IMG/VR virus record: IMGVR_UViG_3300044825_000535
Span: 1 to 20,491 of that record
Length of the DNA: 20,491 nucleotides
From: a virus
Reading direction: 5' to 3' (one strand)
In this document: positions 8,576 to 19,829 of the stretch, piece by piece
Numbering within the stretch: the first letter of the stretch is position 1
Layout of the letters: each line of letters begins with the position of its first letter
Program-made: the position numbers and the translations under genes
The notes under the pieces: model-generated
Database searches by the model: none
Seen by the model: only the letters and a program-made list of their open reading frames with translations
Told to the model about the DNA's origin: nothing

Positions 8576-8604
8576 TTAGTTCCCTATCCCCAAATGTTTA
8601 GTTT

Positions 8605-8613
8605 ATTATAGCA
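8605..8613 (-). promoter_or_regulatory. Putative extended -10 promoter element inside the adhesin array
   Basis: TGCTATAAT reads on the minus strand in the 47-nt gap between the stop at 8623 and the start at 8575. It is a full-consensus extended -10. No good -35 lies 17 nt upstream (ACGCAA), which extended -10 promoters tolerate. A start site near 8598 would leave a short leader that includes the Shine-Dalgarno of the 476-aa gene. It is inferred from the motif only. Confidence 0.4.
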
Positions 8614-8622
8614 TTGTTTTAT

Positions 8623-9897
8623 TTACTTTGCGTATCTGACTATTACAACGCCTGAGCCGCCTGCTCCACCAAGACTCGGAGTAAATCCATTTCCTCCTCC
8701 GCCCCCATTTCCAGTATTTATTGTTGCTGTTGCTCCATTTGTAGCACCAGTAGTATTTCCTCCTGCACCACCAGTTGCATAGACAACTGATGTTCCAGTA
8801 ATTGATGATGTTGCTCCAGCACCACCTGCTGCTCCAGAACTTGAATTAGCAACTCCACCGATGGCTGTTGCTCCACCTCCACCGCAACCGCCTAAACCAG
8901 CAGAACTTGTTTGGCTTCCGCCAGCAAATCCCTGTCCTGCTGTTCCAGCGCCGCCAGCGGGGAGAACTCCAAAAATATCTCCGTTACCAGCGCCACCGCC
9001 AGAACCACCGTTGCCAGCATTGGTATCTTGGCGAGAGCCAAAACCTCCACCTATCGCTGTATAAAGAGAGCCAAAAACTGTATTGTTTCCATTAGAACCA
9101 TTAGTAAACTGGCTTCCGCCACCAGCACCACCACCACCGATAGTAATGGTTTGAGCAGAAGATAAAGAAACTCCAGTATAGGACAAATAACCACCAGCAC
9201 CACCACCACCAGCACCTCTTGAAGAAGAAGTTGCTCCAGCACCGCCGCCGCCACCGCCTGCTACAACAAGCAAATCACAACTAAGTGTTTGTAACGGTGT
9301 AAAAACGCCACTTGCATTGAAGAGGTGATAAACATGCGTATCCGTATCATACACTGTTCCACCAGTAGCCTTAATTTGACTTCCTGTACGAGAAATTCCG
9401 TATAAAGTTGCTGAAGACCCATTAGCCAAATTACCGTTTAGTGCATTTAAAGTAATTGATGTAATAGCAGATGTGGTAGAATTAGAAATTGCTTGCATAA
9501 CTAAATATGCTTCTGCAGCATTATTTTCTGCAGCGCTATCAGACATATATATTTTAACAGAATTGTTTTTATAATTAGGTATATATACAAGATTATTTGA
9601 AAACGTAGATGCGGTAGCATTAGCAGCAGGAACTCTTCCAGACCAAGTTTGTTCAAAATTTGTATTGGCACTTGCAACTGAAGAACCATTTCCAGTTATA
9701 TTTCTATATGTATAACCACTTGTTAAACCGTTAACTTGAAGTCCAAGTCCATCCTCTACTGTTGCCCTTGTAGAACGAGCAGAAATAAATATTTGCAAAT
9801 CATCGTAAGTTTGTGGTATATTTGTAAATTGAATTGTAGTTTGACCACCACTTAATGTTATGGTTTCAATTTTTATTGCTGTTCCTTGTAATGCCAT
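8623..9897 (-). CDS. Glycine-rich adhesin, MALQGT type (cassette copy 1, third gene)
   Basis: I place the start at ATG 9897 (MALQGTAIKIETITLSGG, 424 aa), because it forms a TAATG overlap with the upstream stop and matches the MALNGT paralogue. The open frame extends 25 codons further, but those overlap the upstream gene and encode an Arg/Trp-rich shadow. The beta module occupies about 1-165 (IQFTNIPQTYDDLQIFISAR; ITSITLNALNG; ATLYGISRTG). The linker IKATGGTVYDTDTHVYHLFN and a glycine-rich domain (DLLVVAGGGGGGGAG to GSGVVIVRYAK) follow. Within it, QTITIGGGGAG replaces the usual YTVTIGAGG, GTAGQGFAGG is present, and the loop near 8774-8820 is the SITGTSVVYA type. It is probably a virion receptor-binding protein. 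No membrane segment or signal peptide is visible, as expected for a virion component. Confidence 0.85.
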   Translation of the reverse strand: MALQGTAIKIETITLSGGQTTIQFTNIPQTYDDLQIFISARSTRATVEDGLGLQVNGLTSGYTYRNITGNGSSVASANTNFEQTWSGRVPAANATASTFSNNLVYIPNYKNNSVKIYMSDSAAENNAAEAYLVMQAISNSTTSAITSITLNALNGNLANGSSATLYGISRTGSQIKATGGTVYDTDTHVYHLFNASGVFTPLQTLSCDLLVVAGGGGGGAGATSSSRGAGGGGAGGYLSYTGVSLSSAQTITIGGGGAGGGSQFTNGSNGNNTVFGSLYTAIGGGFGSRQDTNAGNGGSGGGAGNGDIFGVLPAGGAGTAGQGFAGGSQTSSAGLGGCGGGGATAIGGVANSSSGAAGGAGATSSITGTSVVYATGGAGGNTTGATNGATATINTGNGGGGGNGFTPSLGGAGGSGVVIVRYAK

Positions 9898-11213
9898 TAG
9901 ACTAAGTACCTCACGATAACTATTCCTGAGCCGCCGCTGCCAGACGGACCAGCAACGCCTCCTGCTGACCATCCCCCTCCGCCGCCGCCAGCTGCACGAG
10001 TACCAGAAACTGCTGCTCTTGCAGCACCACCTGCAGAACCAGCGCCACCGCCACCATTTCCTCCAGAGTTAGGAGATGATGAAGATTCGTAAGTTGATCC
10101 TCCTCCGCCTCCTGCGTACCAAAATGTATTAGAAATATTTTGACCTGTTTGGGTAATAGATCCCCAAGATGAATAAGTGCTTGTGCCATTACCGCCAGTT
10201 CCTCCAGTATCAAAAGAACCGTTACCTCCTACTGCGCTTGCTCCACCACCACCGCCGCCTGCTCCGCGTCCAGAAGTAGCAAAACCACTACCACCAGCAA
10301 ATCCTTGACCCGATGTGCCAGAACCACCAGCAGATGCGGAACCTCCACCTTCACCACCACCGCCGCCGCCAGATCCTCCAGAAAGACCAGTAGAACCAGA
10401 GCCCCCGCCTCCGCCGCCGACTCCAGCAGTTAATGACGCAAAGGAGGAGTTGTTGCCTGAACCACCTCTAGTCACACTAGAACTTGTGCCTGCTCCTCCT
10501 GCGCCAACGGTTACAATACTGCGAGTATTGCTTGTTAGAGATTGCGAAGAGTGATAAACCAATCCTCCAGCGCCTCCTCCGCCACCATAAAAGTTGCCGC
10601 CTCCGCCGCCGCCACCTGCAACCACAAGAATATCGCAATTTATATTTTGCAAAGGTTCAAATAATCCAGAGGAAATAAATGCGTGATACCAATAAGTACC
10701 ATCATTTACAACGGTATCTCCACCAAATGCCTTCGGTGAGCCAGCGCCTATTCCATATAAAGTAAAGTTAGAGCCTGCGCTAAAAGTGTTAGCTGTGCTT
10801 GTATTAATAGTAATTGAGTTAATGGCAGAATTGGATCTCCATAGCCCAACAATTGCTTCTGTTGAAGTAGCAGCAGAAGAATGTCTGCTTATATAAATTT
10901 TATTAGTTGTACTATTTGAGTAATTTATAATTTGAATTATTGTCATTTGACGATTTGCAAAAGAATTAACTACATCAATATAAGAATCGGAATATCTACC
11001 TGTTGCAGCAGTAGAGCCTGTACCATAAAAAGCAGTACAGGAATAAAGTGCACTTGTATCACCATTAAATTTAATAGTTTTTGCATTTGAGCCACTAGCA
11101 ACTCCTTCAAAAATTAAGACAAGGTCAGTGTAGAATTGAGGTATGCCACTAAAAGTAATAGAGGTTGTAGAAGAAGAAATAGTTTGTGTTGCTATTGGTG
11201 TGTATGTAGACAT
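9897..11213 (-). CDS. Glycine-rich adhesin, MSTYTPIA type (cassette copy 1, second gene)
   Basis: This 438-aa protein begins MSTYTPIATQTISSSTTSIT and has the beta module with ITFSGIPQFYTDLVLIFEG and the end SNFTLYGIGAGS. The linker AGSPKAFGGDTVVNDGTYWY leads into a glycine-rich domain from about residue 198 (DILVVAGGGGGGGN) to GSGIVIVRYLV. The domain contains IVTVGAGGAG and GTSGQGFAGGSG. It carries the aromatic loop type (STYSSWGSITQTGQNI, then FWYAGGGGG) at about 10108-10190, unlike its N-terminal paralogue at 5805-7145. This loop type is otherwise found in 12411-13508 and 18369-19829. The start codon directly follows the upstream stop (TAAATG), so translation is probably coupled. A virion adhesin role is inferred. 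Confidence 0.85.
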   Translation of the reverse strand: MSTYTPIATQTISSSTTSITFSGIPQFYTDLVLIFEGVASGSNAKTIKFNGDTSALYSCTAFYGTGSTAATGRYSDSYIDVVNSFANRQMTIIQIINYSNSTTNKIYISRHSSAATSTEAIVGLWRSNSAINSITINTSTANTFSAGSNFTLYGIGAGSPKAFGGDTVVNDGTYWYHAFISSGLFEPLQNINCDILVVAGGGGGGGNFYGGGGGAGGLVYHSSQSLTSNTRSIVTVGAGGAGTSSSVTRGGSGNNSSFASLTAGVGGGGGGSGSTGLSGGSGGGGGGEGGGSASAGGSGTSGQGFAGGSGFATSGRGAGGGGGGASAVGGNGSFDTGGTGGNGTSTYSSWGSITQTGQNISNTFWYAGGGGGSTYESSSSPNSGGNGGGGAGSAGGAARAAVSGTRAAGGGGGGWSAGGVAGPSGSGGSGIVIVRYLV

Positions 11214-12168: not shown

Positions 12169-12411
12169 CTATAATGCTCCTGCTAGGGTAAGAATTTGTA
12201 AATCTGTAATCGGTTGTGTGTCAAAAGAAACTGTTCCCCAATTAGTATTTGTTCCATCAGTTGTTAGATATTTTCCAGATTGAGAAGTTTGAACTGGCAA
12301 TAAAGCATTAAGAGCATTTGTTGATGATGTTTGTCCTGTTCCGCCTTCGGTAATTGGCAGGGGGGTTCCAAGATCTATTCCCTGTTTTACTTTAAAGTCT
12401 TTATCTGCCAT
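12169..12411 (-). CDS. Small tail-fibre-like protein with MADKDFKVK docking tag (80 aa)
   Basis: The protein begins MADKDFKVKQGIDLGTPLPI, followed by the fibre signature EGGTGQTSSTNALNALLPVQ and KYLTTDGTNTNWGTVS. The MADKDFKVK start is shared with 7145-8575 and, in altered form, with 17953-18357 and 18369-19829. The GGTGQT...NALLP segment is common in phage tail-fibre shafts. I infer that the conserved N-terminus attaches the protein to a common virion site. It always directly follows a glycine-rich gene in this window (TAATG overlap here). Its 80 residues make it much shorter than most fibre proteins, so it may be an adaptor rather than a complete fibre. Confidence 0.75.
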   Translation of the reverse strand: MADKDFKVKQGIDLGTPLPITEGGTGQTSSTNALNALLPVQTSQSGKYLTTDGTNTNWGTVSFDTQPITDLQILTLAGAL

Positions 12412-13508
12412 TATCCACCAACCTGAGATCTTGTATATCTAACAATTACTATTCCTGAGCCGCCGTTAGAACCAGCGTAAACTGGATTTCCTTGTCCTCC
12501 GCCACCTCCGCCACCAGTATTTGCTGAACCATTATTACTAAACAAGTCAAAATTTGTAGTTCCAGCACCACCACCGCCAGAGCCTCCAGTTCCACCTACT
12601 GTCCCCCCTTGTCCACCGCCTCCACCTGCGAACCAACGTGTTCCAGATATATTTTGTCCATATCCTGTTGCAGCTCCCCAGGTAGAGTACGATGAGGATC
12701 CAACTCCGCCATTTCCTCCAGTATTTGAAACTCCACCATTTGTAGCTGCTCCACCTGCGCCACCGCCACCTCCGCCAGATCGTGGAGCGCCACCGCCTAT
12801 ATCTTGAAATCCATTATTTCCAGAATTTCCCTGTCCAGCTGTTCCAGCGGCAAATTGTCCTGCTGGATTATATGCTCCTCCGCCGCCAGAGCCTCCTACC
12901 GCTGCAGTGTAATATGCAGAATTATTAAATCCTGCAGCATATCCGCCACCGACTGCTGCAGTTAAAGATCCGAATTGAGAATTACTGCCATTTGTTGGCA
13001 TTCCCCCTGCTCCATTTGATCCTGTTCCTCCAGCTCCAACTGTTACTGTATACGTTTGGCTAGATAAAGATTGTGATGTAAATGCTAAAAGGCCACCTGC
13101 TCCTCCTCCGCCTCCTGCTGCTCCACCTGCGCCACCTCCTGCAACAACTAAAATATCTGCGGTTATTGGACCATTTGATACCGATAGATTTCCAGTAGAA
13201 GAAAATGATCTATAATAATAAGTAGAATCGGAGGCTAAAATTCCTCCCGTCATAGAAGGAGTTAAAACTCCAACTGAGCCAATTAATTTCCAACCTTCAT
13301 TTGCAGTATACTGAATCAATCCATCTAAAGTTGTATCGTAATATAAATCACCAACAGCAGGAGATCCTGGACGATTTGCCGTGGTGCCACGAGCAAAGTG
13401 TCCATTTGCTCTTGTATTATGGCTAGAGATAGCCGCCGCTGTCTCTGTATCTGTCGCTAACGATGTAGCGGTAGAGAGAACGTTGGCAACATCTCTAGCC
13501 CTAGTCAA
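12411..13508 (-). CDS. Glycine-rich adhesin with MTRARD docking tag
   Basis: This 365-aa protein has a TTG start at 13508 (MTRARDVANVLSTATSLATD), supported by alignment with MSKARD in 14551-15855. Residues 1-30 are the docking-type tag and a short helical stretch. About 43-78 is the small beta repeat NRPGSPAVGDLYYDTTLDGL with GWKLIGS. A linker with TYYYRSFSSTGNLSV leads into the glycine-rich domain (about 115-360): DILVVAGGGAGG, YTVTVGAGGTG, GTAGQGNSG, the aromatic loop SSYSTWGAATGYGQNIS at about 12625-12700, and the end GSGIVIVRYTRSQVGG. The C-terminal SQVGG extension resembles SQIDG in 18369-19829 and differs from the shorter ends of the cassette genes. It is probably a virion adhesin. Confidence 0.85.
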   Translation of the reverse strand: MTRARDVANVLSTATSLATDTETAAAISSHNTRANGHFARGTTANRPGSPAVGDLYYDTTLDGLIQYTANEGWKLIGSVGVLTPSMTGGILASDSTYYYRSFSSTGNLSVSNGPITADILVVAGGGAGGAAGGGGGAGGLLAFTSQSLSSQTYTVTVGAGGTGSNGAGGMPTNGSNSQFGSLTAAVGGGYAAGFNNSAYYTAAVGGSGGGGAYNPAGQFAAGTAGQGNSGNNGFQDIGGGAPRSGGGGGGAGGAATNGGVSNTGGNGGVGSSSYSTWGAATGYGQNISGTRWFAGGGGGQGGTVGGTGGSGGGGAGTTNFDLFSNNGSANTGGGGGGGQGNPVYAGSNGGSGIVIVRYTRSQVGG

Positions 13509-13516
13509 TTATTTTA

Positions 13517-13912
13517 TTACTCCTCTGCTGGAAGCTCTTGATCTATTGTAATTACTTGCCAATTAAGGTCATCTTCTACCCACATATATGGGCCGCCCTC
13601 TGTTGGCATTGGTGTTGGGGCATTCCAAAGACATGTGTCTTCATCTAATACCCAAGAATCAAAAGGCTTTGGAGGAATGAATGCATCTCGTCCTGCATCA
13701 TATGTATATCCAATTCCTGCATAATTCTTACGAAGTGGAGTTCCACCATTTGAATGAACTCCGCCATGTGTATTATAGCTTGTCTTTACCCAAGTTCCAC
13801 CAAGATTTAAATCATTAGCCAAGAAGTCTTGACCACGATGCTCTTGATCATCTCCTACGACAAGAACTTGAACGACAACATTGTTTTCGTCAATTTGTGC
13901 AAAATGTGCCAT
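13517..13912 (-). CDS. Conserved phage structural protein, MAHFAxxDENN type (131 aa)
   Basis: The protein begins MAHFAQIDENNVVVQVLVVG and contains GGTWVKTSYNTHGGVHSNGG, LRKNYAGIGYTYDAGRDAFI, PPKPFDSWVLDEDTCLWNAP and a C-terminal MWVEDDLNWQVITI. This arrangement is familiar from T4-like cyanophages and other environmental phages, where it sits among tail-fibre genes; the biochemical role is not known to me. The SW...E..W.P.P.P...W...W pattern recurs in the 92-aa protein at 14276-14554. An ideal Shine-Dalgarno (AAAGGAGGT, 13919-13927) precedes the ATG, which suggests high expression. Confidence 0.8.
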   Translation of the reverse strand: MAHFAQIDENNVVVQVLVVGDDQEHRGQDFLANDLNLGGTWVKTSYNTHGGVHSNGGTPLRKNYAGIGYTYDAGRDAFIPPKPFDSWVLDEDTCLWNAPTPMPTEGGPYMWVEDDLNWQVITIDQELPAEE

Positions 13913-13933
13913 TTCTTTACCTCCTTTGATAAA

Positions 13934-14170
13934 TTAAATTACGAGAACTTCTGCTTCTTCTGCAGTTAATGGTTCTCCTGAAATAAGCTTTGCTTTTGCT
14001 GAAGCTTTAAGGGCAGCTTTTGCTGCTTCCGCCTCTTCACGAGCAGCCTGTTCTGCAGCGAATGCTGCTGCATCAGCTTCACGCTGAGCAATTTCTTCTG
14101 CTGTAAGAGGGACAATTGTTTGACGGCCTGTAGCACAGTCAACTACAATTTTTGTTAATGTTTCTGACAT
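13934..14170 (-). CDS. Small helical phage protein, Ala/Glu-rich (78 aa)
   Basis: The protein begins MSETLTKIVVDCATGRQTIV, then PLTAEEIAQREADAAAFAAE and a long Ala/Glu/Lys helix up to about residue 60. It ends with ISGEPLTAEEAEVLVI. The layout (short beta tag with a TG turn, a PLTAEE helix start, coiled coil, second TAEE turn) is common for small proteins beside phage fibre genes. An assembly or adaptor role is inferred, not shown. The 82-aa protein at 15858-16106 has a similar plan with little direct identity. GGAGG lies 5 nt before the ATG, and an extended -10 lies further upstream. Confidence 0.7.
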   Translation of the reverse strand: MSETLTKIVVDCATGRQTIVPLTAEEIAQREADAAAFAAEQAAREEAEAAKAALKASAKAKLISGEPLTAEEAEVLVI

Positions 14171-14190
14171 TTTATCCTCCTATCCGATAT

Positions 14191-14219
14191 ATTTTAGCAT
14201 TATATAATATATAAGTCTA
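14191..14219 (-). promoter_or_regulatory. Putative extended -10 promoter before the 78-aa gene
   Basis: TGCTAAAAT (14199-14191) with TAGACT (14219-14214) exactly 17 nt upstream closely resembles the element at 2582-2610 (TGGACT, 17 nt, TAAAAT). The predicted leader is about 14 nt and includes the GGAGG ribosome site. The element lies in the 105-nt gap 14171-14275, the largest gap in the array. It is inferred from the motif. Confidence 0.4.
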
Positions 14220-14262
14220 TTAGTTGTTTAGAATATCTAATTATTACTATTTTTGATCCACC
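14200..14262 (-). pseudogene. Remnant of the 3' end of a glycine-rich adhesin gene
   Basis: In the gap between the stop at 14276 and the start at 14170, one minus-strand frame encodes GGSKIVIIRYSKQLID (14262-14215) just after a TGA and with no start codon. It then runs to TAA at 14202-14200. This matches the C-termini of intact adhesins, GGSGIVIIRYTKSQIDG (18369-19829) and GGSGIVIVRYTRSQVGG (12411-13508), and the underlying bases also align. I read it as the tail of an eighth glycine-rich gene whose body has been lost. Conservation of 16 codons in a non-coding gap is hard to explain otherwise, although the tract is short. Confidence 0.65.
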
Positions 14263-14275
14263 TCAAAGGCATTGT

Positions 14276-14554
14276 CTACTCATAGGAATTTATTTCTACC
14301 CATTCTTGCCCCTGTTCATTCCACACAAAATTTAACCCATTAGGCTTTGGTTTTGGACAGATCCATTTACCTTCATTACGGGTCCATGATGCGAAAGGTT
14401 GTTCTGGGTAAAAGTAACCATCAACATAGTCTCCACCTATAACGGCGGGGTTTTCTTCGGCATATTCAATCCAACCAGTAGAATTCCACGATTCATTGCC
14501 GACAGAAATATTTATTACAACACTATTTTCATCCAATAAAGCAAAATTTTTCAT
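14276..14554 (-). CDS. Small phage structural protein, short relative of the 131-aa DENN protein (92 aa)
   Basis: The protein begins MKNFALLDENSVVINISVGN. It shares with the protein at 13517-13912 the xxFAxxDENxVV start and a C-terminal half with PFASWTRNEGKWICPKPKP and FVWNEQGQEWVEI. It lacks the central TWVKTSYN...GYTYD segment. The family accompanies fibre genes in environmental phages; its function is unknown. The ATG overlaps the upstream adhesin stop by four bases (ATGA), which implies coupling to the glycine-rich gene 14551-15855. Confidence 0.75.
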   Translation of the reverse strand: MKNFALLDENSVVINISVGNESWNSTGWIEYAEENPAVIGGDYVDGYFYPEQPFASWTRNEGKWICPKPKPNGLNFVWNEQGQEWVEINSYE

Positions 14555-15855
14555 TCTGAATACCTCACAATAACAAGTCCAGACTTCCCACTACCGCCGT
14601 TATTGTAGCCACCAGAACCAGCACCACCACCACCAGAACCATATGAAAAGCCATTACCAGGTGCAACAGCAGTAGTACCAGCGTCATTTGCACGACCACC
14701 ATTACCGCCACCAGTTCCAGCAGTTCCACCCGAACCAGGTCCAGTGCTACCACCAGCACCAGCAGAACCGCCGCCGCCCGACGAAACAACAGTCATTCCT
14801 GATAAAGTCGTAAAATTAGCAGACGTTAGTTGGCTATCAATGTTAGTAAGGGTATATCCTGCACCACCGTTTCCACCACTAGTTCCACCAGTTCCACCGA
14901 CTCCAGTTGCACCACCACCTCCACCTCCACCATAAAGCGGTGGTGAATTACCACCAGCACCACCATTGTTAGTGTTTGAACCACTGGCAGTACCGCCGTT
15001 TAGTGTGCTGCCACTTCCTACGCCTTGACCACCACCGCCAGATCCACCGTTTGCTCCAGGGGTATTACCTTGCGAGGCTCCACCACCGCCGCCAAGAGAA
15101 CTGACTATGGTAGATGATGACGGGCTGACTACGGTTGTAGTTCCACCAGTTCCACCTTTATTTGAACCACTTGTACTTCCAGTACCACCACCACCTATGG
15201 TTATTGTATAGTTTCCACTTACAAGATTTACATCGTTAAGTAAATCTAGTTCACCACCACCGCCTCCGCCACCCGTAAATGTTCCTCCACCGCCTCCGCC
15301 ACCAATTGAATATATGCTAGCTTGACCACCTATTGTTACAGAAAGAGTTCCATTTTCTGTAAAAATATGATAACGGGAATTGCCAACTGTTTTTACTTCA
15401 TTACCGCCTGTTGCTGAAATCATAAGAATTGGAGTAACGCTATTGCTTGCAGAAGATGCAGCACTAGATCCTTTTATATTTGTAGCCACAACCGTAAATG
15501 TATAAGATGTATCATTTGTTAATCCAGTAATTGTTATTGGAGAAGACGATCCAGCTTTTTTAATATTACCTGGAGTAGAAGTTACAATATATCCTAATAT
15601 ATCAGATCCGCCATTATCTACTGGAGGTGTAAATGATACTGTTGCTTGTGTATTTCCACGAGTTGCTGAAACAGATGTTGGAGCACCTGGAACATTTACA
15701 GATGAATCAAATGTGGAAAGTCTAGATGTATCAGAAATTCCGTGTACTGATGTAGTAGCATTATTATGAGAAGCAATAGCAGATGTTACTTCAGCATCTG
15801 TAGCCGCCGAAGTTGAGGCGGAAAACAGATTAGATATGTCTCTCGCTTTGCTCAT
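14551..15855 (-). CDS. Glycine-rich adhesin with MSKARD tag and one FN3 domain
   Basis: This 434-aa protein starts MSKARDISNLFSASTSAATD, an N-terminus widespread among phage fibre-type proteins. Residues about 56-142 form a fibronectin type III domain (PGAPTSVSATRGNTQATVSF; SSPITITGLTNDTSYTFTVV). The adhesin part starts near 147 with SATGGNEVKTVGNSRYHIF. The glycine-rich domain begins with IYSIGGGGGGG rather than the usual LVVAGGG, contains YTITIGGGG, and ends GSGKSGLVIVRYSE. Its loop near 14780-14860 (YTLTNIDSQLTSANFTTLSG) is a third type not seen in the other six proteins, and the QG(Y/F)AGG segment is missing. It is therefore the most divergent member of the set. Translation starts 2 nt after the upstream stop. 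Receptor binding is inferred. Confidence 0.85.
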   Translation of the reverse strand: MSKARDISNLFSASTSAATDAEVTSAIASHNNATTSVHGISDTSRLSTFDSSVNVPGAPTSVSATRGNTQATVSFTPPVDNGGSDILGYIVTSTPGNIKKAGSSSPITITGLTNDTSYTFTVVATNIKGSSAASSASNSVTPILMISATGGNEVKTVGNSRYHIFTENGTLSVTIGGQASIYSIGGGGGGGTFTGGGGGGGELDLLNDVNLVSGNYTITIGGGGTGSTSGSNKGGTGGTTTVVSPSSSTIVSSLGGGGGASQGNTPGANGGSGGGGQGVGSGSTLNGGTASGSNTNNGGAGGNSPPLYGGGGGGGATGVGGTGGTSGGNGGAGYTLTNIDSQLTSANFTTLSGMTVVSSGGGGSAGAGGSTGPGSGGTAGTGGGNGGRANDAGTTAVAPGNGFSYGSGGGGAGSGGYNNGGSGKSGLVIVRYSE

Positions 15856-16106: not shown

Positions 16107-17155
16107 TATTTAGCTCCATATATATACATTGTGCCTGTTGAAAAGTTAGATGACATAACTGCAGATACGCTAGTTACTGCATTATTAAACATTGTTGTTC
16201 CGCCGCCATTAAATGCAGTCCAGTTTGTGCTTGGATTCCATATACCTCCGCCAAACCAATGAAACGTTTTCATGCTGCTTGCTCTACTATAATCATAAAC
16301 AATTAAAGATGTATTAAAGCTCGCTGGACCATCTACATAGGATCCAGTTCCTGGAAAAACTTGTGCATTATTTACTATAATTCCAGATTGGACTCCATAA
16401 CTTGCTATTGATCCAAATGTGTGTTCCGTATATGTATAATTATATCCTGTTGTATTTCCATTAAGCCTAAATGCTATTGTTGATCCACTTGCTGCATAAA
16501 AGTTTTTCAAAAATATATAAAGATTTGTATATCCCTGATCAATTCCAGAAACAGTAACTGTTGATTGTCCAGAAAGTGATGTGGTGCTTAATAAAGTCAT
16601 TCCACCAGACGATAGTGTTGTCCACGATGGAACTCCGCCAGAAACAGATAAAACCTGACCAGTTGATCCAATTCCAAGTCTTGCTGGCGTATTTGCTCCA
16701 GATGCATAAATAATATCTCCAGTAGTTGTTGTTAGTGTATTATTAATAACTCCAGATGCGCTTGTAATTGTTGGAGAAGTTAAAGTTTTGTTTGTAAGTG
16801 TTTGGGTTCCAGTTGTTGTAACTATTGAAGAGTCTACCTGGCTACTTGTAATATTTCCAGTAATTGATGTTGATGGAACAGATGCAACACTAAAATTATT
16901 ATAACAATTAATTTGAATAAAATCACTTGCTGCTAATGCAGTTAATCCAGTAATTGATGTTCCATTTGTGGCTGTATAGTCTTCACCACGTACTAATAGA
17001 ATACCGTTTAAATATACCTGTTCCTGCCCAGGAGTGTACGAAAGAGCCTGGTTGGCGTTATCATAGCCAGAAAGGCTTGTCTCGCCTCCTGCGGCTGTTT
17101 TACGCCATATAAGGCTAGTTAATACACCATTGGGTGATGGATATTGATCTATCAT
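16106..17155 (-). CDS. Modular tail-fibre-like protein with C-terminal IPQTYTDL-type beta module
   Basis: In this 349-aa protein, residues 1-98 form an N-terminal beta domain common in phage fibres (AAGGETSLSGYDNANQALSY; QVYLNGILLVRGEDYTATNG; ALAASDFIQINCYNNFSVAS). About 116-130 is the shaft motif GTQTLTNKTLTSPTI, also present in 19838-20491. About 146-180 is GDIIYASGANTPARLGIGST with GQVLSVSGGVPSWTT. Residues about 186-349 are a divergent copy of the IPQTYTDL beta module (VTVSGIDQGYTNLYIFLKNF; IAFRLNGNTTGYNYTY; ending GTMYIYGAK). The ATG overlaps the end of the HNH gene by four bases (ATGA). A role as a fibre or receptor-binding tip protein is inferred from the modules. Confidence 0.82.
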   Translation of the reverse strand: MIDQYPSPNGVLTSLIWRKTAAGGETSLSGYDNANQALSYTPGQEQVYLNGILLVRGEDYTATNGTSITGLTALAASDFIQINCYNNFSVASVPSTSITGNITSSQVDSSIVTTTGTQTLTNKTLTSPTITSASGVINNTLTTTTGDIIYASGANTPARLGIGSTGQVLSVSGGVPSWTTLSSGGMTLLSTTSLSGQSTVTVSGIDQGYTNLYIFLKNFYAASGSTIAFRLNGNTTGYNYTYTEHTFGSIASYGVQSGIIVNNAQVFPGTGSYVDGPASFNTSLIVYDYSRASSMKTFHWFGGGIWNPSTNWTAFNGGGTTMFNNAVTSVSAVMSSNFSTGTMYIYGAK

Positions 17156-17655
17156 AACGACATCTCCCTTTCTGACTCTTCTACTAATTCATAAAAACTT
17201 AAATAAATTATAGCATTTTCAAGAATTTGAATATTTTCTTTAAGAAGACCTATTGATGTATTGCAATTTTTACAAAGTAGTCCTCTAATCTTACCAGTTT
17301 TATGATTATGGTCTACAGCTAAATTATTTCCAGTACCACATTTTTCTTTGCATATTGCACAAACTTTATTTTGAGAATTTAATATAAACTCATATTCATT
17401 TATGGTTATCCCAAATTTTCGCCTAATATGACCTTCTCTAGATATTTTTTTTGTTTTTTCTAAATTTTTTTCTCTATATTTTCTTTGAGCTTCTAATTTC
17501 ATTTGTCTACTTTTTCTTATTTCAACAGGAAGGTTTGCCCAATATTGTCTTTGTTTTTCATTTCTACATTCTCTACACTGATACCCTTTAGGATGAAAGT
17601 TACTGATATCTTTGTATTGTTTACAAATTTTACAAGTTCTATTTTTAGCAGTCAT
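17152..17655 (-). CDS. HNH endonuclease, recombination endonuclease VII-like (probable homing nuclease)
   Basis: I start the gene at ATG 17655 (MTAKNRTCKICKQYKDISNF, 167 aa); upstream codons overlap the preceding gene. An N-terminal zinc-binding site is visible as Cys8, Cys11, Cys27 and Cys30. A basic linker (about 34-80) precedes the nuclease fold: Cys98 and Cys101 (VCAICKEKC), the catalytic DHNHKTGKIRGLLC (Asp114, His115, His117), then Cys127, Cys130 and Asn131. This is the phage HNH / endonuclease VII type, frequent as free-standing homing endonucleases that cut cognate DNA and spread their own gene. It could also resolve branched DNA. It sits between two fibre genes, 1 nt from one stop and overlapping the next start, without disrupting either. 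The DNA is markedly AT-rich and Lys-rich compared with its neighbours, consistent with separate origin. Confidence 0.9.
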   Translation of the reverse strand: MTAKNRTCKICKQYKDISNFHPKGYQCRECRNEKQRQYWANLPVEIRKSRQMKLEAQRKYREKNLEKTKKISREGHIRRKFGITINEYEFILNSQNKVCAICKEKCGTGNNLAVDHNHKTGKIRGLLCKNCNTSIGLLKENIQILENAIIYLSFYELVEESEREMSL

Positions 17656-17656
17656 T

Positions 17657-17953
17657 TTAAGAAATTTCAACCCCACTAATATGATATTTGACATCTGTAC
17701 TACTTGAAAATCCAGTAACTGTTTTAGATGTTGCAATTACTGTTTTAGGTTGTAGGGTTATTACTGTATTTCCCGCCACTGGAACAGTGGGAATAATATT
17801 TACGCCATCAATTGCAATTGTTATATATTGCTGAGTTGAAGATGTGTTTGATATAACAATATCTGTCAAAACAGACTTTGTGGTGGTGGTAAATAATGTG
17901 CCAGAAGTTGTAGCAAATGATCCTCTAGCAAATAATACTGGTTCTACTGGCAT
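17657..17953 (-). CDS. Small beta-rich phage protein ending HISGVEIS (98 aa)
   Basis: The protein begins MPVEPVLFARGSFATTSGTL and has the same plan and length as the 100-aa protein at 11846-12148: VLTDIVISNTSSTQQYITIA, then IDGVNIIPTVPVAGN, then TVTGFSSSTDVKYHISGVEI. Alternating hydrophobic residues suggest an all-beta fold. In both places it follows a MADKDF-type tag gene and precedes a gene carrying the IPQTYTDL module, here with the HNH gene in between. Its function is unknown; a virion adaptor is plausible. The ATG overlaps the upstream stop (TAATG). Confidence 0.75.
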   Translation of the reverse strand: MPVEPVLFARGSFATTSGTLFTTTTKSVLTDIVISNTSSTQQYITIAIDGVNIIPTVPVAGNTVITLQPKTVIATSKTVTGFSSSTDVKYHISGVEIS

Positions 17954-18368: not shown

Positions 18369-19829
18369 TTATCCATCTATTTGAGATTTTGTATAGCGAA
18401 TTATAACTATTCCTGAACCACCTGCGCCACCAACAAATCCAGCTATACAACCACCACCGCCGCCGCTATTAGCCAAACCACTATTTATTGATCTATTTAG
18501 TCCACCGCCTCCGCCTAAACCTCCGTTGGCATTAGTATTGCTGCTTCCAGGACCTCCAGCTCCTCCTCCAGCAAACCAATATGTTCCAGCAACATTGTGT
18601 CCAAATCCAGTTGCAAGGCCCCATGAAGAATACGATGAAGATCCATTTCCCCCAGCACCAGCTTGACAACAAAAAGCTGGATTTGTACTTCCTCCTGCCG
18701 CCCCAGCGCCACCGCCGCCACCGCCAGTTTGATATTGACTAGCAGCATATTGTCCACTTCCTCCATTATTTCCTTGTCCTGCTGTTCCAAGGCCTCCAGT
18801 TGCAGTTCCAGTGCTAGATCCTCCACCTCCAGAACCACCATTACTTCCTACTCCGCCTCCTACACTAGCACCCCTGCCTCCGCCAATTGCTGTGGAGGAA
18901 CCAAAAGAAGAATTTGTTCCGTTTGAAGAAGTTCCACCTGCACCAACGCTAACATTATAAGTGCTAGGTGTTAGATTAACTGCTGATTGATATAATAATC
19001 CTCCAGCTCCTCCTCCACCGCCTTGCTGATTACCAGAGCCTCCACCAGCAATTATCAATATGTCCGCTGTTACAGGTTTTCCACTAACTGTAAGCGTACT
19101 TGTTGAAGCAAAGGATCTATAATAATATGTAGTATCTGAAGACAATGTTCCACCAGTAAGTATTGGAGGTCCATCTGTAGTTATTTGATTTGATAAGCTT
19201 GAAGAAGAAGACGTTCCAAGAGCATTTGTAGCTGTAACCGTAAATGTATAACTTGTGCTTCCAGTCAAACCAGTTACTGTAATTGGGCTTGATGATCCAG
19301 AAGCAGTAATATTTCCTGGATTTGAAGTAGCGGTATAAGATGTAATTGTAGAATTTCCAGTATCTGATGGGGCGGTAAATGCTACTGTTGCTGTTGTCAT
19401 TCCAGTTGCTGTCGCAGTTCCAATAGTAGGGGCATCTGGTGCATAACCAATAATTGTAGTTAAATTACGAACTAATTTATATCTAACTAATGTGGTTGCA
19501 GCATCTGTTACAGTAATTTGCAAAATAGCATTTGTTGATGCGGTAGTAGCGGTAACTGCAACTCCTGTCATTGTTCCGCCTGTTTCTACAATACCAAATT
19601 CTGTCATATCAACATTTGTGCCATCAGTTTGAACTAATACTTTTGATGTTCTAATCTTAGAACCTTGCGTTAGAGTAACAGTATATTCAGCAGAAAGAAA
19701 TTCATTTAATGCAATAGTATCAACAATGGTGGCGGAATTAGAGGTAATTGTTTCTTGAATAATTGATGTGGGAATAGAACTTGAATCAATATCTATTCCT
19801 CCAGTTGCTCTAAAATTCTTTCTTGCCAT
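18369..19829 (-). CDS. Glycine-rich adhesin with QGSKIR module and FN3 domain
   Basis: This 486-aa protein starts MARKNFRATGGIDIDSSSIP, a divergent relative of the MADKDF tag. Residues about 28-125 are the QGSKIR module (NSATIVDTIALNEFLSAEYT; QGSKIRTSKVLVQTDGTNVD; TEFGIVETGG), nearly repeated at the end of the preceding gene. About 131-218 is a fibronectin type III domain (APDAPTIGTATATGMTTATV; SSPITVTGLTGSTSYTFTVT). The glycine-rich domain (about 258-480) runs from DILIIAGGGSG through YNVSVGAGG, GTAGQGNNGG and the aromatic loop SSYSSWGLATGFGHNVA (18570-18645) to GSGIVIIRYTKSQIDG. A Cys pair (FCCQAGAGG) is unusual for these proteins. GGAGG precedes the ATG at 5 nt. Receptor binding is inferred. 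Confidence 0.85.
   Translation of the reverse strand: MARKNFRATGGIDIDSSSIPTSIIQETITSNSATIVDTIALNEFLSAEYTVTLTQGSKIRTSKVLVQTDGTNVDMTEFGIVETGGTMTGVAVTATTASTNAILQITVTDAATTLVRYKLVRNLTTIIGYAPDAPTIGTATATGMTTATVAFTAPSDTGNSTITSYTATSNPGNITASGSSSPITVTGLTGSTSYTFTVTATNALGTSSSSSLSNQITTDGPPILTGGTLSSDTTYYYRSFASTSTLTVSGKPVTADILIIAGGGSGNQQGGGGGAGGLLYQSAVNLTPSTYNVSVGAGGTSSNGTNSSFGSSTAIGGGRGASVGGGVGSNGGSGGGGSSTGTATGGLGTAGQGNNGGSGQYAASQYQTGGGGGGAGAAGGSTNPAFCCQAGAGGNGSSSYSSWGLATGFGHNVAGTYWFAGGGAGGPGSSNTNANGGLGGGGGLNRSINSGLANSGGGGGCIAGFVGGAGGSGIVIIRYTKSQIDG

Follow-up and report, generated by a model that had tools for sequence, protein, structure and literature searches.

T-even and lambdoid phages are classic cases of tail-fibre gene mosaicism. 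Tailed phages are documented to swap the genes for tail fibres and receptor binding in mosaic fashion, for example in cryoconite phages (PMC7468147), and phages E7 and F5 of 'Ca. Nanopelagicales', which have 39-kb genomes, carry a host-recognition island (PMC10202952). The window analyzed here is the whole stretch of DNA of a 20.5-kb virus record (20,491 nucleotides) with genes on the minus strand. Its low end encodes a prohead protease and a portal protein; beyond these, tail adhesin genes and small genes form an array. E7 and F5, which are freshwater actinophages, resemble the window in their variable tail-fibre region. In contrast, the portal protein of the window is approximately 60% identical to those of large Streptomyces phages such as BillNye, a likeness from which we infer that the host is probably an actinobacterium.

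As in the tail-fibre mosaicism described previously (PMC7468147), host-recognition genes in the window appear to have been replaced by recombination while the flanks were kept. Unlike in those cases, the window contains a short untranslated 3' remnant at the breakpoint, and its boundary carries a promoter-like element that is conserved; we found no report of such adhesin remnants in the published literature searched. The remnant is a clear mark left by a familiar process, adhesin exchange in phages, and does not represent a novel type of system; it is ordinary phage mosaicism with unusually well-mapped edges.

The remnant in the gap at 14171–14275

The gap at 14171–14275 is the longest intergenic gap in an otherwise tightly packed array. 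Read on the minus strand, it comprises a 13-base junction (14263–14275), the adhesin-like sequence GGTGGATCAAAAATAGTAATAATTAGATATTCTAAA (14227–14262; GGSKIVIIRYSK), the heptamer CAACTAA, the promoter-like element TAGACT-17 bases-TAAAAT (14191–14219), and the sequence AGGAGG (14176–14181), read as the ribosome-binding site of the following 78-aa gene (13934–14170, minus strand) and conserved in position in relatives. The 78-aa protein had no match among named phages, and an Rfam search of the window returned nothing. The 92-aa gene upstream of the gap (14276–14554, minus strand) and the 131-aa gene at 13517–13912 both match phrog_7759, a family of unknown function, and recur beside adhesins in relatives; they are possible fibre assembly partners.

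Adhesins of the window match the Pfam family Gly_rich_2 (PF21722). Those at 18369–19829 (65.7 bits) and 12411–13508 exceed its curated cut-off, and a 434-aa protein falls just under it (23.5 against 24.3); the remnant, being only the last 10–12 codons, is too short for whole-domain scoring. An earlier note had read positions 14200–14262 as a single peptide; from 14262 to 14200 the minus strand encodes GGSKIVIIRYSKQLIDLYII-stop. The tail part of that reading (14262–14227) stands, whereas its "KQLID" match is coincidental: adhesin-coding homology is limited to about 14262–14227 and ends at RYSK, positions 14223–14200 are spacer and promoter-like sequence, and "QLID" corresponds to the stop codon, spacer, and -35 box in the ungapped counterpart in locus L211. 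A TGA (14265–14263) lies immediately upstream, there is no in-frame ATG, GTG, or TTG, and the scrap is untranslated; its presence can be explained without assigning it any function. We considered whether ribosomes might reach the tail from the 92-aa gene by programmed frameshifting and rejected this, since the TGA directly precedes the tail in the tail's own frame and a frameshifted ribosome would need to enter between the two.

The tail has also decayed. Glycine occupies tail position 4 in all 69 of 69 distinct intact tails, compared to lysine in the remnant, and the stop codon has been lost: RYAK-stop in L211 corresponds to RYSK-CAA in the window, with CAA (14224–14226, minus strand) in place of a presumed ancestral TAA (ungapped match, 59 of 75 positions identical). 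The remnant combines the features of a pseudogene fragment, namely homology to a 3' end, untranslatability, loss of invariant features, and intact counterparts in L031 and L211.

Similarity to adhesin tails was compared with that of shuffled sequence. The ungapped DNA match of the remnant to the tail of the 18369–19829 adhesin scores 24; when the gap was dinucleotide-shuffled 3,000 times and each shuffle compared with all seven intact adhesin tails of the window, the best score was 18. Against a 30-nt profile built from 63 distinct intact tails of other phages, the remnant scored 22.7–25.3 bits (22.7 with gap background), compared to a maximum of 13.5 among 20,000 gap shuffles, and comparable scores occurred elsewhere in the window only at true adhesin ends. 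Homology is also evident independently of this motif: by BLASTN, window positions 13555–14262 align to L031 in one contiguous alignment (E = 1e-86) that runs over the 131-aa and 78-aa genes and the promoter-like element into the tail. Shorter alignments extend to L211 (14165–14263, E = 1e-15) and L220 (14188–14262, E = 7e-7), and all three stop at 14262/14263, the edge of the remnant. The shuffle comparison, which the earlier note had proposed, and the profile and alignments thus bear out its reading of an adhesin C-terminus, and the stop just upstream and the lack of a start codon are confirmed; the gap holds a real decayed adhesin 3' end. A search of viral contigs for the exact pattern of tail plus -35 box yielded no match.

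Intact counterparts were found in relatives. In L031, a 448-aa glycine-rich adhesin ending GGSGLVIIRYSI-stop lies 65 bases before a homologue of the 78-aa gene, in the order adhesin, element, 78-aa gene, and 115-aa gene of the 131-aa family. L211 is syntenic with the window on both sides, with homologues of the 98-aa gene, the 349-aa gene (418 aa in L211), and the 82-aa gene; after the last come a single adhesin of 838 aa with an MSKAR start, the element, a gene of the 131-aa family, and an adhesin of the MTRARD type, and the ungapped match runs through both tail and element. L031, whose adhesin directly precedes the 78-aa homologue, comes close to the check proposed in the note, an intact glycine-rich gene between the 92-aa and 78-aa genes of related phages. 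Among the relatives found, none combined a close homologue of the 92-aa gene with an adhesin between that gene and the element. In this region, identity of L031 and L211 to the window is only about 70–78%, and none of the relatives examined is a close one that preserves the arrangement before the swap.

The promoter-like element and remnants beside it

The element at 14191–14219 (minus strand), detected by consensus scan, matches sigma-70/SigA-type hexamers at 9 of 12 positions, with a 17-nt spacing inside the 16–18 nt range sought and an extended -10 (TGC, i.e., TGn). It is likely a promoter of this type, as predicted from its sequence. Intact adhesins precede the same element in at least seven other phage records, a comparison which shows that the predicted promoter predates decay of the tail. 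The suggestion that decayed coding DNA may have become regulatory is accordingly unsupported. The view of the scrap as a remnant of gene turnover beside a likely promoter is upheld.

By hand count, TAGACTTAT...TG(n)TAAAAT with 17-nt spacing occurs at 22 distinct array junctions; the loci were fetched by patterns containing the element, and its exact sequence was therefore not sampled independently. The patterns permitted other spacings, and every array junction nonetheless had 17 nt. Upstream of the element are eight intact glycine-rich tails (seven of them complete, the eighth truncated at a contig end), seven adhesins of another end type (GTITF/GSITF-like), three other genes (in L022, L200, and L203), and four remnants (in the window, L190, L216, and L217). 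The TAG stop itself forms the start of the -35 box in five intact genes (L022, L193, L195, L210, and L223). Most relatives carry a dyad between the hexamers (ATCATT...AATGRT), and that of the window differs (TTATATA.TATATAA); these dyads may be putative operators. Within the window, the gap at 8576–8622, after the intact adhesin at 8623–9972, contains a promoter-like TGCTATAAT. In bacterial genomes, 13 scattered matches to the element in unrelated taxa were judged likely to be chance.

A second remnant lies directly before the conserved element at L276:6748–6817 (equivalent to L190:548–617). Here, a 440-aa adhesin ending PGVIIISY-stop is followed by a 71-aa DUF6171 gene, GGCGGTTCA-TGA-GTTGTAATAGTTAGATATCCAGTTTAA, and the element. 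The remnant reads GGS-stop-VVIVRYPV-stop and begins, as in the window, at GGSG codons; its new TGA now closes the 71-aa reading frame. The portal protein of this phage is 82% identical to that of the window. This remnant is independent of the window's and has the same layout, and the two are the only glycine-rich-type tail remnants in 2.07 Mb of fetched loci.

Tiny frames resembling a gene start fused to an adhesin tail were observed in L216 (minus strand, before the element) and at L217:820–872. Their tail parts are the last 5–6 codons of another adhesin type (MSYQLKVIKDYPLGFWPLDESSGIITF-stop and MAIRKFSTSSTGTITL-stop), and L216 retains a full MSYQL gene copy further on; these shorter candidate remnants are less certain. 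Two other candidates, L122:400 and L113:3622, were rejected: the glycine-rich body is apparently present in another frame, and they look like frameshifted genes or sequencing errors.

Origin of the remnant

We consider it fairly probable that the remnant is the tail of a resident glycine-rich adhesin, displaced when a glycine-rich domain and the 92-aa gene were brought in by recombination. The starting state would have been a glycine-rich tail adhesin with an MSKAR-type head and this tail. Recombination would have imported a foreign glycine-rich adhesin domain with its trailing 92-aa gene, and the right breakpoint would have fallen at GGSG-coding sequence just short of the end of the resident gene, so that the tail was kept, along with the promoter-like element that directly follows it. 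The head and tail of the old adhesin would now bracket the incoming segment, the head beginning the 434-aa protein and the tail forming the remnant. Further deletion may have been disfavored because the 78-aa gene would thereby lose its promoter.

The 434-aa gene (14551–15855, minus strand) is a probable chimera, in which a resident-type head and fn3 domain (residues 1 to about 139) are joined to a donor-type glycine-rich domain. It begins with the same MSKAR head as the 838-aa adhesin of L211, whereas its glycine-rich domain, together with the 92-aa gene, corresponds to a separate cassette in L002–L008; there, the head in front of the pair is different and shorter, and the genes that follow are unrelated. 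Window positions 14277–14647 are 78% identical to L002 at the DNA level. Donor-type BLASTN matches are confined to 14277–15419, the strongest reaching the 14652–14277 region. Nine further distinct array loci give matches that start at 15428–15431, where fn3 ends, and the match to a tenth, L200, starts at 15442. At the right edge, resident matches stop at 14262/14263 and none crosses. The intervening junction, ACAATGCCTTTGA, falls outside both donor-type and resident homology, which end at its flanks, a point against the swap. Sequence comparison thus shows the right edge within 14262–14276 and suggests a left edge at about 15419–15431, giving a putative incoming segment of 14276–15425 (minus strand). 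The head and the tail appear to derive from one resident gene. A search with the 434-aa protein at full length matched just four loci, all weakly. One weak match, to L100 (65%), crosses the left junction and also counts against the swap, since the join between fn3 and the glycine-rich domain could predate the event. Further points against it are the lack, among the relatives found, of a close one in the pre-swap state and the fact that both remnant-bearing contigs are metagenome assemblies.

An endonuclease VII/HNH-type gene lies within the adhesin array at 17152–17736 (minus strand; PF02945, 83 bits) and could drive nearby exchange. A similar-looking gene directly follows the promoter-like element in L214.

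The main competing explanation follows the earlier note, in which the remnant was taken for the trace of an eighth adhesin that stood separately between the 92-aa and 78-aa genes and lost its body while its tail stayed. Relative G002 (L031/L277) lends this some weight, given that the interval from its 82-aa gene to the element contains several genes, including two glycine-rich adhesins, and that the adhesin adjoining the element has a different head type; the window's remnant could likewise be a separate lost adhesin. However, this history requires both an insertion and a deletion rather than one replacement, and L211 has a single MSKAR-type adhesin in this interval, with the same head as the 434-aa gene. 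We regard an eighth adhesin as probably wrong, with perhaps a minor share of the probability, and one replacement inside the resident adhesin is probably the simplest reading.

Selection on the scrap as an upstream part of the promoter, i.e., an A+T-rich UP-like element or a binding site, is improbable. The scrap is indeed A+T-rich and abuts the -35 box, a position occupied by intact tails and remnants alike. Elsewhere, however, unrelated DNA lies upstream of the element (LYGIG-stop, GSITF-stop, or a phrog_7759-like gene), and coding accounts for conservation in relatives. An assembly chimera, misjoined at repeated glycine-rich sequence, is more improbable still: the coding strand of the window contains 13 copies of GGNGGNTCA, and repeats of this kind are easily misassembled, but a misjoin would not produce the decay of the tail (glycine to lysine, stop lost), the DNA upstream of the join is not glycine-rich, and a second contig shows this layout as well, there with another partner gene. 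Chance resemblance, despite an A+T-rich gap and a short protein match, can be dismissed given that none of the 3,000 or 20,000 shuffles matched the observed scores and that, for three relatives, an unbroken alignment leads from the element into an intact tail.

Adhesin exchange and its traces

Adhesin swapping is usually inferred by comparison of whole genes. The displaced tail fixes one breakpoint to approximately 13 bases, tells which end is older, and suggests that the promoter-like element limits the extent of replacement. We tentatively propose that the 3' GGSG sequence and the element together form an exchange boundary that is used repeatedly, with displaced tails as its markers, an extension less likely to hold than the single replacement. 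If true, adhesin domains and their small partner genes would be swapped repeatedly at the GGSG/element point, and the leftover tails would be usable for counting and dating switches in host recognition. Searches of metagenomes for such tails could count past changes in host recognition.
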